A stretch of DNA of 64,000 nt from Novibacillus thermophilus (GTDB lineage: Bacteria > Bacillota > Bacilli > Thermoactinomycetales > Novibacillaceae): NCBI RefSeq assembly GCF_002005165.1, contig NZ_CP019699.1:2728001-2792000 (forward strand), given 5' to 3'. The notes under the pieces are model-generated. The model saw only the letters and a list, made by a program, of their open reading frames with translations, was not told where the DNA came from and searched no databases. Numbering within the stretch: position 1 is the first letter of the stretch; each line of letters opens with the position of its first letter. Made by a program: the position numbers and the translations under genes. Positions 15,991 through 32,415 of this stretch are shown piece by piece.

Positions 15991-16961
15991 TTGAAGCCGG
16001 AGATCGAACACATTTTGCCGCAACGTTTGCGTCAGCTAATCGAGGCTATCCCCCAGCACATTTCTCCGTACATTGAAGAAATACGCGTGCGTTTGGGACG
16101 ACCCCTGGAAGTGGTGACGGCGGACAAGGTCCTTTACGTACTTCCGGACGGCACCGTCTCTAAGTACTATCAAGCGGCATACCGTCCCGATGATTCCGAC
16201 TGCACCGCCTTGCTGAGCCTGATCAGCAATCATTCTCTCTACGCTTTAGAAGAAGAGTTGAAGCGGGGATATGTGACCATTCAAGGGGACACCGCGTCGG
16301 GATTGTCGGGAGAGCTGTCGTCGAGGACGGAGAGGTGAGTCATTTGCGCAGTGTGAGCGGGTTCAATATCCGCATCGCCCGCGAATTGAAGGGGGTGGCG
16401 CGATCTCTCGTGCCGTTTCTTACCGATCCAGACGGAAGATGCTATAACACACTCATCGTATCGCCTCCCCAGTGCGGCAAGACAACCCTTCTGCGGGATC
16501 TTGCCCGTTGCTTTAGCAGCGGAGGAGAACACGAGGCGGTGAAGGCGAACAAAGTCGGCATCGTAGATGAGCGGTCCGAGTTGGCGGGGAGTGTGAACGG
16601 AGTGCCGCAGCTCGACATCGGGCCGAGGACGGACGTGCTGGATGCGTGTCCCAAGGCGGAAGGGATGATGATGATGATCCGCTCGATGTCTCCGGACATA
16701 CTGGTGGTGGACGAAATCGGGCGGCCGGAAGACGCGAGGGCCATAGACGAAGCCGTTCACGCAGGCGTTCAGTTAATCACCACCGTCCACGGCAAGGATT
16801 TAGACGATATCAGCCGACGCCCGGTACTGTCCCGCATTTTACAGCAGTCAATTTTTGCCCGTTATGTCCTTCTCAGTAAAAAACGCGGTACCGGGACGGT
16901 TGAGGGAGTGTACGATGCCGAATGGAATGAGCTTTGGGAAGGGCGGGTGCATGCCATGTGA
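15991..16961 (+). pseudogene. spoIIIAA: Stage III sporulation protein AA (ATPase), one-base frameshift
   Basis: Cytoplasmic ATPase of the SpoIIIA-SpoIIQ feeding-tube complex between mother cell and forespore, related to secretion ATPases. The TTG at 15991 follows AGGAGG. The first 98 residues match the family up to LYALEEELKRGYVTIQG, then the frame fails; the next frame reads GHRVGIVGRAVVEDGEV and carries on through SVSGFNIRIARE, Walker A SPPQCGKTT, GIVDERSELAG and the Walker B-like ILVVDEIGR to the stop at 16961. One extra G in the run 16285-16288 gives a full ~323-residue protein. As spoIIIAA is essential for sporulation and everything else is intact, a sequencing error is likely. Confidence 0.9.
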
Positions 16962-24564: not shown

Positions 24565-25532
24565 ATGTCTCGATACGTGCTCGGAATCGACACGAGTAAC
24601 TACTGTACGTCGCTCTGCCTCTTGTCAGATGCGGGAGAGATTATGGCGGACAAACGGAAGTGGCTGCCGGTAGCGCGAGGGATGAAAGGGGTGCGTCAAT
24701 CGGATGGAGTTTTTCACCACGTGCGGCAACTGGCCGATCTGTGGTGCAGTGTCACTGTCCCGGATAGTGCCCGGCTGGCTGCCGTCTGTGCCAGTAGCGC
24801 TCCCCGACCGGTCGAAGGTTCTTACATGCCAGTGTTTACGGTCGGCGTCAACTGGGGACGGTCTCTTGCCCATGCGGCTGGTGTTCCGTTTTACGAGACG
24901 ACCCATCAGGAAGGACACATCGCGGCAGCCCTTGGCGCCGCCGATCGCGAGGTAGAGGAAGACGTGCTCACAGTCTTACACTTGTCCGGGGGACATCGGA
25001 CATGCTGCACGTGCGGCGTTTGGCGTCAGGCTTTCAAATAAGAAAAGTGGGCGGTTCTACAGATTTGTATGCAGGTCAACTCGTGGACCGGATTGGCGTG
25101 GCGTTAGGTTTGTCTTTCCCAGCTGGGCGCGAACTCGAGCAGCTGGCGCGAGAGTCGCAGCAACTCCTATCAGTTCCTGCATCAGTACAGGGGACACACT
25201 TTTCGTTTTCGGGTCCGGAAACTGCGCTGAAGCGCCTTTTGGAGACGGGGCGGCATCGCGTTGCCGACATCGCCCGCGCCGTGGAAAACGTCATTGCCAA
25301 AACGGTGGAAAAAAGTCTTCTCAACGCTTTTAAAGCGGGATTTCCAAAACACGTTTTGCTCGTAGGAGGCGTGGCGGCGAACAACTACATCAGGGAGAGA
25401 CTGAGACGACGTTTAGAACACCGGGCCGTCGGCGCCCGAATATCTTTTGCCCGCGTTCACTTCTCCGGTGACAACGCATTCGGCGTAGCCTCTATCGGGT
25501 GGGATCAACTGAAAAAGGAGCTGGACAGGTGA
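24565..25532 (+). pseudogene. TsaD/Gcp-like glycoprotease-family paralogue, one-base frameshift
   Basis: Actin-fold ATPase-like protein of COG0533. The first frame begins YVLGIDTSNYCTS and contains the metal motif TTHQEGHIAAAL (HxxxH) before failing at HLSGG; the next frame continues TSDMLHVRRLASGFQI, LVDRIGVALGLSFPAG, KHVLLVGGVAANNYIRERL, and HFSGDNAFGVA. One extra G in the run 24988-24992 restores ~322 residues. The MKGVRQSDGVFHH segment marks this as the divergent Firmicutes paralogue often annotated O-sialoglycoprotein endopeptidase, not the tRNA t6A enzyme itself. It overlaps folD by four bases. Confidence 0.8.
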
Positions 25533-26717: not shown

Positions 26718-28093
26718 ATGGTGGAGCGGGAAGAGCGAGAGATTTGGACCGTCAGCACACTGAACCGGTACGTCCGCGAATATTTGGAACAGAACGTCAC
26801 CCTGCATTCTCTGTGGGTGCGCGGCGAAATATCCAATTTTAAACATCATTCCCGGGGCACATGTACTTTACGCTAAAGGACGAAGCGAGCCGCATGAATG
26901 CCGTCATGTTTGCCAGGCATAACCGCCGCTTAAAGTTCGTACCGAAAGACGGCGACAACGTGTTGGTGCGCTGTTCCTTGTCCATGTACGAAATTGGCGG
27001 ACAAATCCAGCTGTACGTGAAGGAAATGCAGCCCGACGGCATCGGCACCTTGTTCCTCGCCTTTGAGCAGTTGAAGCAGAAGCTAGAAGCCGAAGGCCTG
27101 TTTCAACAGGAGCGGAAACGCCCCTTGCCTCCTCACCCGAAGACGGTAGGGGTCGTCACCTCACCTACCGGAGCGGCAGTACGGGACATTGTCACCACGA
27201 TTGCCAGAAGATCACCGCATACGAACGTTCTGTTGTTCCCCGCCATCGTGCAAGGAGACGACGCTGTGCAGTCAGTGGTCGACGCCATCGAACTCGCTAA
27301 CCGGCATTTTCAAGAAGAAGTGGACGTTCTCATCGTGGGCCGCGGCGGCGGTTCGCTGGAAGAGCTGTGGGCGTTTAACGAAGAGGCGGTCGCTCGCGCG
27401 ATTGTTCTGTCCGACATTCCGGTTATTGCGGCAGTCGGTCACGAAACGGATGTGACGATCGCCGATTTCGTCGCCGATGTGCGGGCGGCGACACCGACAG
27501 CTGCGGCGGAACTAGCCGTTCCGTCTCACAGTGAACTCGCGGCCCGGGTTCACGATTTACACAACCGGGTCGGCCGTGCCACAACCCGGTTACTCGAGCG
27601 TTACCGCGAACAATTGAATCGATGCCGTAAGTCTCCGGTCATGAGGCGCCCGGCATTGCAACTGCGGGAGTACATCCAACGGCTGGACTATCTTCATGCC
27701 GACCTCACCCGCGCCGCGACCAACCAAGTAAAACGAAACGCCGACAGACTAGCCTACTGTCAAGACCGCATCCGACTGCACCGCTTGTCGGAAAAAGTCG
27801 CCCTTGTGCAAAAAGAGCTCAGGCGCGCTGAACAGCACTTGGTGAGAGGACTTGAACGCATGATTCGCGAAAAGCAGTCGACGTTAGAACATAAGTTGCG
27901 GCAATTGGACGCCCTCAGTCCGCTCAAAGTGATGCAAAGGGGCTACTCCCTCGTCTACCGGGAGGATGACGGACGACTCGTGAAAACGATAGGCGAAGTG
28001 GACCTGGGGGATATTGTGCACGTTCACGTGTCTGACGGGAAACTGAGCTGCCAAGTGTGGGGATTGGAGGAGAAGACGCATGGTGGAAAGTAA
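26718..28093 (+). pseudogene. xseA: Exodeoxyribonuclease VII large subunit, one-base frameshift
   Basis: Large subunit of the single-strand DNA exonuclease. From the ATG at 26718 (GAGGTGAG upstream) the frame encodes IWTVSTLNRYVREYLEQN and LWVRGEISNFKHHSRG, the OB-fold N-terminus, and then breaks; the next frame continues HMYFTLKDEASRMNAVMF to the end with VTSPTGAAVRDI, IVGRGGGSLEELWAFN and GHETDVTIADFVADVRAATPT. One extra G in the run 26854-26857 restores a ~459-residue protein of normal length. The downstream piece alone would lack the DNA-binding domain. xseB overlaps its end by 14 bases. Confidence 0.9.
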
Positions 28094-28337: not shown

Positions 28338-29237
28338 TTGAAGGAACGGTTAGCCCAATACTTGGACCACAAAAGGAAACGTATAGATGAAGCGCTCCGC
28401 CGTGTCATGGCAGAAGAAAAGGACGTGCCCGCGGAATTAAAAGAGGCGATGAACTATTCTCTTTTTGCCGGTGGCAAGCGGCTCCGCCCGGTGTTGACCT
28501 TGACGGTGGCCGAAGCGCTCAGCGCTCCGCTGGAACCCGTCACGCCTTTTGCCTGTGCCATCGAAATGATCCACACCTATTCTTTGATTCACGACGACTT
28601 GCCGTCAATGGATGACGACGACACGCGAAGAGGTCGTCCGACGAATCACAAAGTTTTCGGTGAAGCGATGGCTATCCTCGCCGGTGATGCTCTGCTGACG
28701 AAAGCGTTCGGATTGATGACTCGATGTTCGTCTGGGGAAGGCGCCGATGCTGAAAAGTTGATCAAGTTAATCGACGAAGCCTCTCATGCGGCAGGGGCCG
28801 AAGGGATGGTCGGCGGCCAAGTGAAAGATATCCTGGCTGAGACGAACCCGGTGTCTGTGCAGGAACTGACGGACATTCACCGCCTCAAAACAGGGGCGTT
28901 ACTGCGTCTGTCGGTGAGAGCCGGAGCGATCTTGTCTGGAGCGACTCTCGATCAGCTTGACGCTTTAACCCGATACGCCGACAACATCGGTCTCGCTTTC
29001 CAGATTCAGGATGACGTGTTGGACATCGTCGGAGACCAAGAAAAGACCGGAAAACCGACGGGTCGTGACGAAGCGAGACACAAGGCGACGTTTCCGGCGC
29101 TCATCGGTTTGACCGAATCAAAGAAACGGGTACAGACACTCGTGGAGGAGGCGAAAATACAAGTCACTGCCGCTTCGGGAATCCGAGCAGAGTGGCTCTG
29201 TGAGATAGCGGACTACCTAGTCGATCGTGAGGCATAA
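28338..29237 (+). CDS. ispA: Farnesyl diphosphate synthase (polyprenyl synthetase)
   Basis: Condenses IPP with DMAPP and GPP to FPP for quinones, undecaprenyl phosphate and other isoprenoids. 299 residues with GGKRLRPVL, the first Asp-rich motif HDDLPSMDDDD, TGALLRLSVRAGA, and the second FQIQDDVLDIVGD. TTG start with GAGGAGG upstream. Followed by the OLE RNA region, oapA and dxs, which form an isoprenoid operon. Confidence 0.96.
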   Translation: MKERLAQYLDHKRKRIDEALRRVMAEEKDVPAELKEAMNYSLFAGGKRLRPVLTLTVAEALSAPLEPVTPFACAIEMIHTYSLIHDDLPSMDDDDTRRGRPTNHKVFGEAMAILAGDALLTKAFGLMTRCSSGEGADAEKLIKLIDEASHAAGAEGMVGGQVKDILAETNPVSVQELTDIHRLKTGALLRLSVRAGAILSGATLDQLDALTRYADNIGLAFQIQDDVLDIVGDQEKTGKPTGRDEARHKATFPALIGLTESKKRVQTLVEEAKIQVTAASGIRAEWLCEIADYLVDREA

Positions 29238-29266
29238 TTGTTGGTGGGTAGCTCTTATGATATAAT
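29238..29266 (+). promoter_or_regulatory. Sigma-A-type promoter of the OLE RNA
   Basis: TTGTTG (29238-29243), 17 bases, TATAAT (29261-29266), placed directly after the ispA stop codon. Transcription would start near 29273, a few bases before the 5' arm of the terminal stem. Confidence 0.65.
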
Positions 29267-29272
29267 GTGGAT

Positions 29273-29880
29273 ACTTATGATGGAATGGTGCAGTATTCTA
29301 GTCAGTCTATTTCCTCCGAAGACGGGCCTAAAAATCCGTTAAAGGGCACATCGATGAAGTTCTTGGTGTTGGCTTCCGATGCCCCGTCGGGGGTCGATGC
29401 TGAGAGTTAAGGTTGAAGGGCGATCCACAAGGGCATGTGGGCGAAGACCCTTCTTCCGTGGAGGACTCAAGATGCCGCCAAGTTTGTCGTCGGCACCTTG
29501 AGTTTAAACCTGCATACGGGGTTCACCCTCCGGATGCAGCGTAGCCTGCCTTGAGTGGGAGCAGAGAGGATTATCTTGACGGACGGCTCGTTCTCGGCAA
29601 GGAGCAGTCGTTTCCTTTCAAGATATGAAATCTGCCCTGCAAAAGAGGCTAGGAGGGGCAGAATAGACTGTTGAGGAAAACTCCTAGACTGTTTGCATCA
29701 AGCAAGGTTCTCTGAGGATTACAGTACGGTCTAAGTGGCAATCCAGTCCGAAACGGGGAGACCCTTTCGAGTGGCACGTAAAGGGAAACCGCCAAGAACG
29801 GCAACGTTCTGGTGTGCCGCTGGGAAAACCTACTGGACCTAAGCCGTAATGTTTACTCAGAGAACTACCATTCCATCCTT
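29273..29880 (+). ncRNA. ole: OLE RNA (ornate large extremophilic RNA)
   Basis: About 610 bases between ispA and the oapA/dxs genes contain no protein-like frame but are rich in hairpins and GNRA-like purine stretches. This is the known location and length of OLE RNA, which lies just upstream of its membrane partner gene oapA in the isoprenoid operon of Halalkalibacterium halodurans and other extremophilic or anaerobic Firmicutes. GATGGAATGGT (29279-29289) is perfectly complementary to ACCATTCCATC (29867-29877), an 11-bp pairing that closes the whole molecule and sets both ends. The RNA localises to the membrane with OapA and is linked to resistance to ethanol, cold and Mg2+ stress in H. halodurans. 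The end positions are estimates; no covariance search could be run. Confidence 0.85.
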
Positions 29881-29914
29881 CACGCAGGAGACAATCGGAG
29901 GGTACACCCTTACT

Positions 29915-30565
29915 ATGATTCACATATTTCGGGGATCTTGGCGCTGGACGGTTACGGTGACGATCGCCACGTTCGTGCTCGCGGCTGTTTTTTCAGTGAC
30001 GTCCACCGTTTTTCTCAACGGCTTGTCTTGGGGAATTGGCCTCTGCATGCTGTTCGTCATCGTGTTGATCGGCGTCGTGTTCGACGCCATCGGCATTGCA
30101 GCGGCCGCGGCGGACGAGAAACCGTTTCACTCTATGGCGTCCAAAAAAGTGCCCGGCGCACGACAAGCTGTTGGGATTATCCGCAAGGCGGATCAGTTTT
30201 CGAACTTTTGCAATGATGTGATCGGAGACATTAGCGGAATTGTGAGCGGTGCCGTGGCCTTTGCCGTCGTCACTCAGATCGTGCTGGCGATGCAAAATCC
30301 GACGAGTGCGATTCAGGCAGGAATTAACGTGCTGCTGACGGCCATCGTGGCAGCCGTGACGGTCGGCGGCAAAGCGTTGGGGAAATCGGTCGCCATTTCC
30401 CATGCCAACGACATTGTCTTTTATGTGGCAAAAGTTTTTTATGTGTTGGAAGCGCGGTTTCGCATCACGTTTTTTGACGTCAGACGAGAAAAACACAAAA
30501 GACGGGACAGAAAGCGGGAGATCAAACAGTGCTATTGGAAAAAATCAACTCACCTGAACAGTTGA
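29915..30565 (+). CDS. oapA: OLE RNA-associated membrane protein OapA
   Basis: A ~216-residue integral membrane protein that binds OLE RNA and brings it to the membrane. Four hydrophobic segments ([75 protein letters not shown]), a conserved polar region with [27 protein letters not shown], and a very basic C-terminus ([14 protein letters not shown]) suited to RNA contact. The ATG at 29915 lies 12 bases after GGAGG; the frame stays open upstream to 29849, but that part is inside the RNA. It overlaps the start of dxs by 37 bases, so the two are coupled. Confidence 0.88.
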
Positions 30566-32415
30566 AACAGCTAACTCCCGGTCAATTGCCGCAGTTGGCC
30601 AAAGAAATCCGTCAGTTTTTAGTGGACAATCTTTTTTTTACTGGAGGTCACTTGGGGGCGAACCTCGGGGTTGTGGAGTTGACGATTGCGCTCCATTACT
30701 TGTTTGACAGTCCCCGGGACAAGATCATCTGGGACGTCGGTCACCAAGCGTACGTGCACAAAATATTGACGGGCCGAGCTGATCGGTTTAACACCTTGCG
30801 CAAGTACAAAGGACTGTGCGGGTTCCCGAAGCGGGCGGAAAGTGAACACGACGTGTGGGAGACGGGACACAGTAGCACGTCGTTGTCGGCGGCGATGGGG
30901 ATGGCGACAGCTCGCGACATGGCCGGAGACGACTACAAAGTGATCGCTGTGATCGGCGACGGTGCCATGACCGGCGGCATGGCCTATGAAGCGTTAAACC
31001 ACATCGGTCATGAACAGAAAGACATCATGGTCATTCTCAACGACAACGAGATGTCCATCGAGCCCAACGTCGGCGCCATGTACAACTACTTGGGCAAATT
31101 GAGAACGCACAAACACTACCACAAAGTAAAAGAGGAAGTGGAAACACTCCTCAAACGCATCCCCGCCATCGGGGGAAAAGTGGCCAAGTCGGTGGAACGG
31201 TTAAAAGACAGCATTAAATACTTACTTGTCTCCGGGGTCATTTTCGAAGAGCTCGGCTTTACCTATTTAGGCCCGGTAGACGGCCATCATATCGACGACG
31301 TTATGAGCAGTTTAAAACAAGGTGCCCAAATCAAAGGGCCAGTGCTCATTCACGTTGTGACCAAAAAGGGGAAAGGGTACAAGCCGGCTGAAGAAGCGGC
31401 TGACAATCTGCACAGCGTCGGTGCGACGAAGGTGGAATCTGGCGCCCTCCAGCGTGCGCCGAAAGGACCGAACTACAAAAACGTGTTTGCCGACACGTTA
31501 ATTCAACTCGCCGAACGCGACCCGCGAATCGTTGCCATTACACCGGCCATGCTTGGCGGCAGCGGTTTGATTAAATTTGTGGAACGCTTCCCGGATCGCT
31601 GTTTCGACGTCGGAATTGCTGAACAACATGCCACTACTTTGGCGGCTGGCATTGCGACCCAAGGACAAAAACCGGTGTTGGCCATTTATTCGACCTTTTT
31701 GCAGCGGGGTTACGATCAAGTGATACACGATATCGCGCGACAAAATTTGAACGTCTTTTTGGCCATAGACCGGGCGGGACTGGTCGGCGCGGACGGCGAA
31801 ACACATCAAGGTGTCTTTGATATCGCGTTCCTGCGGTGTTTGCCAAACATGACGGTCATGATGCCGAAAGACGAGAACGAATTTCGCCACATGATTTACA
31901 CGGCTCTTCAGTACGACGGCGGTCCCATTGCCGTGCGGTATCCTCGCGGCGAAGGGATGGGTGTCCCCATGGACGAACCGCTTCGCACCATTCCCATCGG
32001 CCAGTCGGAAATGCTGCACGAGGGGCAAGACGTCACGCTGTTGGCGTTTGGCCCGATGGTGTCCCTCGCGTTAAAAGCGGCACACGCGTTGCAAAAGGAA
32101 GGTATTCACGCTAGAGTCATTAACGCCCGATTTGCCAAACCCCTCGATGCGGACATGCTGTTGCAACAGGCAAACGACGACATGCCAATTGTCACCATTG
32201 AGGAGGGAGTTACGGCGGGCGGTTTTGGCAGCGCCGTATTGGAGTTTTACGCCCAACACCACATTTACCACATGGCCGTGCAAACGATGGGTGTACCGGA
32301 CTACTTTGTCGAGCACGGCAGCGTTCGCGAGCTGCGGGAAGAAGTCGGGCTCACTGTTGAAAACATTGCTGCGAAGGCTCGCAAAATGGCATTAAAGCGA
32401 AGACGGAGAGCGTAA
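30529..32415 (+). CDS. dxs: 1-deoxy-D-xylulose-5-phosphate synthase
   Basis: Thiamine diphosphate enzyme joining pyruvate and glyceraldehyde 3-phosphate, first step of the MEP isoprenoid pathway. 628 residues: [22 protein letters not shown], the cofactor motif [20 protein letters not shown]...[19 protein letters not shown], and the transketolase-like [19 protein letters not shown] start with CGGGAG upstream, inside the end of oapA. tlyA starts two bases after its stop. Confidence 0.97.

Follow-up and report, generated by a model that had tools for sequence, protein, structure and literature searches.

OLE is, to our knowledge, one of the largest structured RNAs in bacteria for which no biochemical activity is known. 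In Halalkalibacterium halodurans it is reported with OapA, OapB, OapC and bS21 bound, and the particle helps cells to grow in the cold, in alcohol, at high Mg2+ and when the carbon source is poor. Two teams have imaged clostridial OLE RNAs by cryo-EM, and the proposal of a membrane-crossing OLE dimer rests on their work (available text of PMC12265935). The bridges seen by cryo-EM are B1 (L4 A-A pairs), B2 (L5, L6 and L7) and B3, a symmetric L9.3 kissing loop that is backed by changes from GGCC into GAUC or AGCU (available text of PMC12286853).

One survey, in its accessible sections, counts 2,822 OLE hits in Bacillota and separates variant 1 (TANB77 clade), with shorter P7, P8 and P9, from variant 2 (RF39), without P7 and P8. 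It also describes shorter P7-P9 in 'many clades', so that P9 shortening as such is known, and notes that species lacking OapA can carry defective ole genes (PMC11332333). Given that count, the initial annotation of the locus analyzed here overstated its case in calling it valuable because new.

Identity and layout of the ole locus

The window, a 64,000-nucleotide stretch of the Novibacillus thermophilus genome (one contig of 3,629,225 bases), carries the only OLE copy of that genome. A cmscan search of the whole window returned a single Rfam match above cut-off, OLE (RF01071), at 29269-29887 on the plus strand. The match covers the model in full (1-616 of 616) at 508.9 bits and E 2.4e-146, far beyond the gathering cut-off of 50 bits. 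The model search proposed by the initial annotation was therefore positive over its full length, and the RNA lies where it had been placed, between ispA and oapA-dxs. The gene order is ispA-ole-oapA-dxs, the neighbors being taken to be ispA and dxs from their sequences, with the following features:

28338..29237, plus strand: ispA, an ORF of 299 aa with its stop at 29237
29238..29266, plus strand: putative ole promoter, with a weak -35 TTGTTG, 17 nt and an extended -10 TGATATAAT (sequence and conservation)
29269..29887, plus strand: ole gene, OLE RNA RF01071 at full length (covariance-model match and conserved columns)
29279..29289, plus strand: 5' strand of P1, 11 bp with 29867-29877, inner nine pairs covarying
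29867..29877, plus strand: 3' strand of P1, 11 bp with 29279-29289, inner nine pairs covarying
29915..30565, plus strand: oapA, coding for OLE-associated membrane protein A (216 aa, basic C-terminal tail; translation and homology)
30529..32415, plus strand: dxs, an ORF of 628 aa that overlaps the end of oapA by 37 nt

The stretch had been described as about 610 bases without a protein-like frame. This holds for 29238-29683, where neither strand has an ORF of at least 60 aa; the remainder of the RNA is touched by three ORFs (79 aa on the minus strand, 134 aa on the plus strand, and an upstream extension of oapA). A hidden protein in the OLE stretch was rejected on the basis of the ORF-free part. 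Position 30565, the end of the region first described, is the end of oapA and not of the RNA.

Two sets of loci were compared. The first contains 126 unique sequences from 131 loci found among 132 tried; the second contains 220, the remainder of 242 loci tried once 17 without the sequence anchors and 5 duplicates had been removed. In the alignment of the 220 OLE RNAs, the window sequence retains 211 of 214 near-invariant columns, defined as those at least 95% conserved in the 219 others. The three changes, placed by manual count, are at 29380 and 29385, both at L5, and at 29477. Its closest sequence in this alignment, at 79% identity, comes from G001, the single other member of the window's family among the 42 genomes of the order Thermoactinomycetales.

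The locus resembles the full-length OLE type (RF01071; H. halodurans, C. acetobutylicum) in its full-model match, its position between ispA and oapA-dxs and its L4, L5 and L6 motifs, but differs by a GGCA in place of GGCC in L9.3 and at the three near-invariant positions. It is a complete, ordinary OLE locus of a known RNA family. The best explanation of the whole, held at a probability of roughly 0.93, is a full-length OLE RNA with oapA, most likely made from an internal promoter, closed by P1, putatively dimeric, and presumably anchored to the membrane by OapA, with OapB, OapC and bS21 also bound.

Promoter and terminal stem

The sequence immediately after the ispA stop reads TTGTTG (29238-29243), a 17-nt spacer and TATAAT (29261-29266). 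The promoter of the initial annotation thus stands at its position, with two reservations: the -35 is weak, matching TTGACA at 3 of 6 positions, and a generic promoter scan of the locus gave nothing at its threshold. The backing for a promoter comes instead from the extended TG and its conservation. A perfect TGnTATAAT is found in the 62-base upstream stretch of 100/126 OLE loci versus 1.2/126 in dinucleotide shuffles, and in the 54-base upstream stretch of 152/217 loci of the larger set. It lies 19-26 nt before the conserved GCAGTATTC in 110 of the 126. Within the operon, OLE thus carries a conserved promoter-like element of its own. Most likely, a housekeeping-type extended -10 promoter after ispA makes OLE (and oapA and dxs), and read-through from upstream would add to its output. 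For H. halodurans, one polycistronic transcript is described (PMC12265935). The literature passages covered, which did not extend to Puerta-Fernandez 2006, mention no internal OLE promoter.

At the two ends of the RNA, GATGGAATGGT (29279-29289) is the exact complement of ACCATTCCATC (29867-29877). The chance of such an 11-mer complementarity is about 1e-4 (about 370 placements between the end regions, divided by 4^11). The Rfam structure line for OLE leaves both ends unpaired, and P1 was scored with the 3' flanks aligned separately and the pairs set by the 5' anchor. In the 126-sequence set, six inner pairs (x-1 and x-5 to x-9) beat all 1000 shuffles and the other three of the nine are nearly invariant; the pair eight bases ahead of the anchor occurs as GC, CG, TA or AT. 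The two outermost of the window's 11 pairs show no covariation support, with 52 and 505 of 1000 shuffles reaching the observed value.

The larger set agrees. Across the 220 sequences, 1778 of 1980 cells of the nine pairs are standard pairs (90%), versus 38-41% when the strands are slid by -1, +1 or +2. The eighth pair is formed in 172 sequences, versus a shuffle mean of 81.8 and a maximum of 99; as the 220 sequences are related, such shuffle counts are not probabilities. The end-to-end complementarity first reported is therefore exact at its coordinates, and the suggested covariation test succeeded for nine pairs but not for the outermost two. P1 is already named in the published OLE model (available text of PMC12265935), so the covariation confirms a known helix. 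P1 would close an RNA that folds into two domains and spans about 29273-29880.

The position of the stretch immediately 5' of oapA, together with a terminator scan that found none on the plus strand of 29150-30000, could suggest merely a long 5' leader that regulates oapA-dxs in cis, with no independent RNA. We consider this exceedingly improbable, since the stem joining the OLE ends covaries, and since the H. halodurans RNA binds OapB and OapC, both encoded elsewhere, and its mutations mimic deletion (available text of PMC9723947).

Downstream of the stem, TACATA occurs within 60 nt of the 3' part of P1 in 123/220 loci versus 7.4 expected from shuffles. It is present in 9/23 loci of the window's order and absent from the window. 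It may mark the 3' end, act in processing, or belong to the oapA leader.

Predicted dimer contacts and the P9 arm

The elements that correspond to the published bridges are:

29329..29336, plus strand: A-rich loop L4 (bridge B1), UAAAAAUC in 23/23 of the order and 198/220 overall
29381..29384, plus strand: L5 loop GCCC (bridge B2), by motif test
29429..29435, plus strand: L6 loop AAGGGCA, the L5 partner (bridge B2), by motif test
29558..29637, plus strand: P9 arm in its long form, 80 nt; the other 21/23 of the order are short
29595..29600, plus strand: L9.3 apical loop CGGCAA, with GGCA replacing the symmetric GGCC (bridge B3); G001 has CGGCCA

Judged by motifs alone, the window keeps the L4 and L5-L6 loops of B1 and B2. 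GCCC and AA.GGCA occur together in 23/23 OLE RNAs of the order and 219/220 overall, under a loose test that accepts a motif anywhere in its expected stretch. Through the L4-L4 and L5-L6 contacts, the RNA would pair with a second OLE molecule.

The third bridge is different. The window's L9.3 carries GGCA, not GGCC, GAUC or AGCU, so the palindromic B3 loop is absent, and the computed L9.3 self-pairing is -2.1 kcal/mol in the window versus -8.9 kcal/mol in G001. The GGCA breaks the published dimer contact, which counts against the overall reading given above. Within the order, for which all 23 full OLE RNAs of the 42 genomes were used, the P9 arm is 37-55 nt and lacks GGCC in 21/23; the long form is restricted to the window's family, with GGCC in G001 and GGCA in the window. 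Outside the order, GGCC is present in 183/190 long arms, and the other seven comprise three AGCU (two of them near-identical), one GGC form (L113) and three otherwise. Short arms were found there at seven loci, an under-count, because the class- and phylum-level loci are mostly the best-scoring part of lists with 86 and 284 matching genomes.

Like variant 1 of PMC11332333, the 21 short-arm relatives have a shortened P9. The window itself has a long P9, and these relatives match over the whole model at 451.6-523.4 bits. A different palindromic loop taking the place of GGCC in the short arms was considered and rejected, as 4 of 21 have a palindromic 4-mer in the predicted loop versus 3.0 expected. 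A palindromic loop is present in 171/190 long arms outside the order versus 28.2 expected.

The GGCA could also be a sequencing error that removed one C from GGCC, in which case the RNA would be entirely ordinary and the overall reading would be unaffected. Relative to the G001 arm, the change is indeed the loss of one C from a CC pair, and three conserved genes of the window look frame-broken, as with residual assembly indels. However, a few indels per 64 kb would rarely strike a given 4-nt site, and a GGC form resembling it occurs in L113, one other long-arm OLE. We regard an error as rather unlikely, while giving it real weight: since residual indels are possible in the assembly, the single-base GGCA is best read as provisional. 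The frame-split genes, judged by eye and taken to be TsaD-like (24565-25532), xseA (N-terminus near 26860, about 26740-28093) and spoIIIAA (15991-16961), suggest either residual assembly indels or true pseudogenes.

The L9.3 loss in the rest of the order is independent of the window's GGCA base. Across the order, the symmetric L9.3 kissing loop seems dispensable as a third bridge. We tentatively propose, at somewhat short of even odds, that the OLE dimer of this order works without B3, through P9 shortening in most members and through a one-base change in the window's species. If so, OLE there would dimerize by L4 and L5-L6 alone or would lean more on OapA, and the P9 arch would be an accessory part of the machine. 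The order offers a natural L9.3 series, present in G001, damaged in the window and absent in the 21 others, with the L4, L5 and L6 motifs kept, so that natural RNAs can serve to test the role of the bridge in place of engineered ones. The literature searched yielded neither a report of the loss of a dimer bridge across a whole order nor a paper on OLE RNA in taxa whose names begin with Thermoactinomyc.

OapA, partner proteins and loss of ole in relatives

The basic-tailed protein predicted to follow OLE is confirmed as a 216-aa OapA (29915-30565), 46-69% identical to 16 other OapA sequences, each encoded directly after an OLE RNA. Its frame is intact and it shares 69% identity with the OapA of G001. 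An OapA frame lies downstream of OLE in 23/23 OLE genomes of the order. One of these frames, at L008:857-1420 on the minus strand, is broken near the C-terminus; the OLE of that genome scores 511.8 bits.

The profile of OapA is weakly similar to CNNM (DUF21, PF01595), at 19.7 bits over residues 46-179, short of the 28.4 bits that Pfam requires. Pfam gave just one further row, Pox_P21 (E 0.071), and neither the CBS and CorC domains nor NCBIfam gave a match to OapA. The predicted structure (mean pLDDT 75.6) has the CNNM protein MtCorB as its best PDB match, a weak one (Foldseek E 0.025, query TM 0.37), with 0/124 Foldseek matches at E 0.001 or better; MtCorB is also the match reported for H. halodurans OapA. 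OapA may thus resemble CNNM proteins by weak profile and modeled fold, but differs from them by its sub-cut-off score and its basic tail. That tail ends in RAPRTD or a close form in most aligned OapA sequences, and the window and G001 differ. In G013, another genome of the order, codons for the RAPRTD tail overlap the dxs start in another frame, as read by eye; the frames of the window's 37-nt oapA/dxs overlap (30529-30565) are offset differently.

The initial annotation had advised looking for oapB and oapC elsewhere in the genome, and both were located. For OapB, the match is to the solved structure PDB 7k9b, 'OLE-associated protein B' (E 2.6e-27), and its gene lies near position 139,700 of the single contig (G000:C1), between genes that we take from their sequences to be map- and infA-like. 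OapC is an 86-aa YbxF-like protein (E 2.6e-23 to 3v7e; 0.3 bit below its NCBIfam cut-off), encoded between what are presumably rpoC- and rpsL-like genes. The genome encodes one more L7Ae-like protein, of the YlxQ type, and a bS21 gene is present. By analogy with H. halodurans, OapB, OapC and bS21 would also bind OLE here, OapA would hold the RNA at the membrane, and the particle may have a stress role in Novibacillus thermophilus.

Two CNNM-CBS-CorC proteins of the MpfA type (L030 and L031) coexist with OLE in the window's genome. The MpfA type is reported to be depleted in OLE species, and the pair counts against the overall reading given above. Above-cut-off CNNM matches occur in 41/42 genomes of the order, the sole exception being G001, which bears OLE. 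An anticorrelation between MpfA and OLE inside the order was not seen: 42 such matches fall in the 23 OLE genomes and 36 in the 19 without full OLE, counting all CNNM proteins, a few of them broken, by hand.

OLE is full in 23 of the 42 genomes, a remnant in one and without a match in 18. Of the genomes without full OLE, 17 were searched for OapA (16 of the 18 OLE-less genomes and the remnant genome G013); none has a full-length copy, and two have OapA scraps at E 9e-4 to 1e-3. What survives in G013 is about 50 nt from the OLE 5' end (22.9 bits, below cut-off) together with part of the P10 region; upstream, TGTGCTATAAT is intact. In G021 no Rfam OLE match was obtained and a 5'-anchor pattern allowing up to 4 mismatches also failed; its ispA-dxs gap was aligned with the OLE 5' end of six references, the best of which scored 60 versus a shuffle maximum of 26; three of the six were clear (60, 55 and 45), one marginal (27 versus 25) and two not above shuffles. 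There too TGATATAAT is intact. These two relatives therefore show ole and oapA remnants between ispA and dxs, each with a perfect extended -10 (L024:1501-1574, L253, L252). The remnants fit the published defective ole genes (PMC11332333, accessible sections), and the joint losses of ole and oapA in the order help to ask what replaces the particle.

With such remnants at hand, and with 18/42 genomes lacking an OLE match, the window's own gene might be on a path to loss like that of G013 and G021, its GGCA and weaker L9.3 self-pairing (-2.1 versus -8.9 kcal/mol) and its divergent OapA tail being early signs. Decay is very unlikely, given a full-length match of 508.9 bits, 211/214 near-invariant positions, 11 perfect P1 pairs, and an OapA frame that is intact and 69% identical to that of G001. 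An intact full-length OLE locus remains the preferred reading.

Mobile origins were also considered. A phage origin was rejected, as OLE has no match in phages, and so was a plasmid origin, as the one distant plasmid match is itself an OLE locus. In this locus, at L254:2983-3647 on a 504-kb record, a full OLE (399.8 bits) is followed by a CNNM protein and dxs. The record is listed as a Pusillibacter faecalis conjugative plasmid; either a secondary replicon carries OLE there or the contig has been mis-filed.
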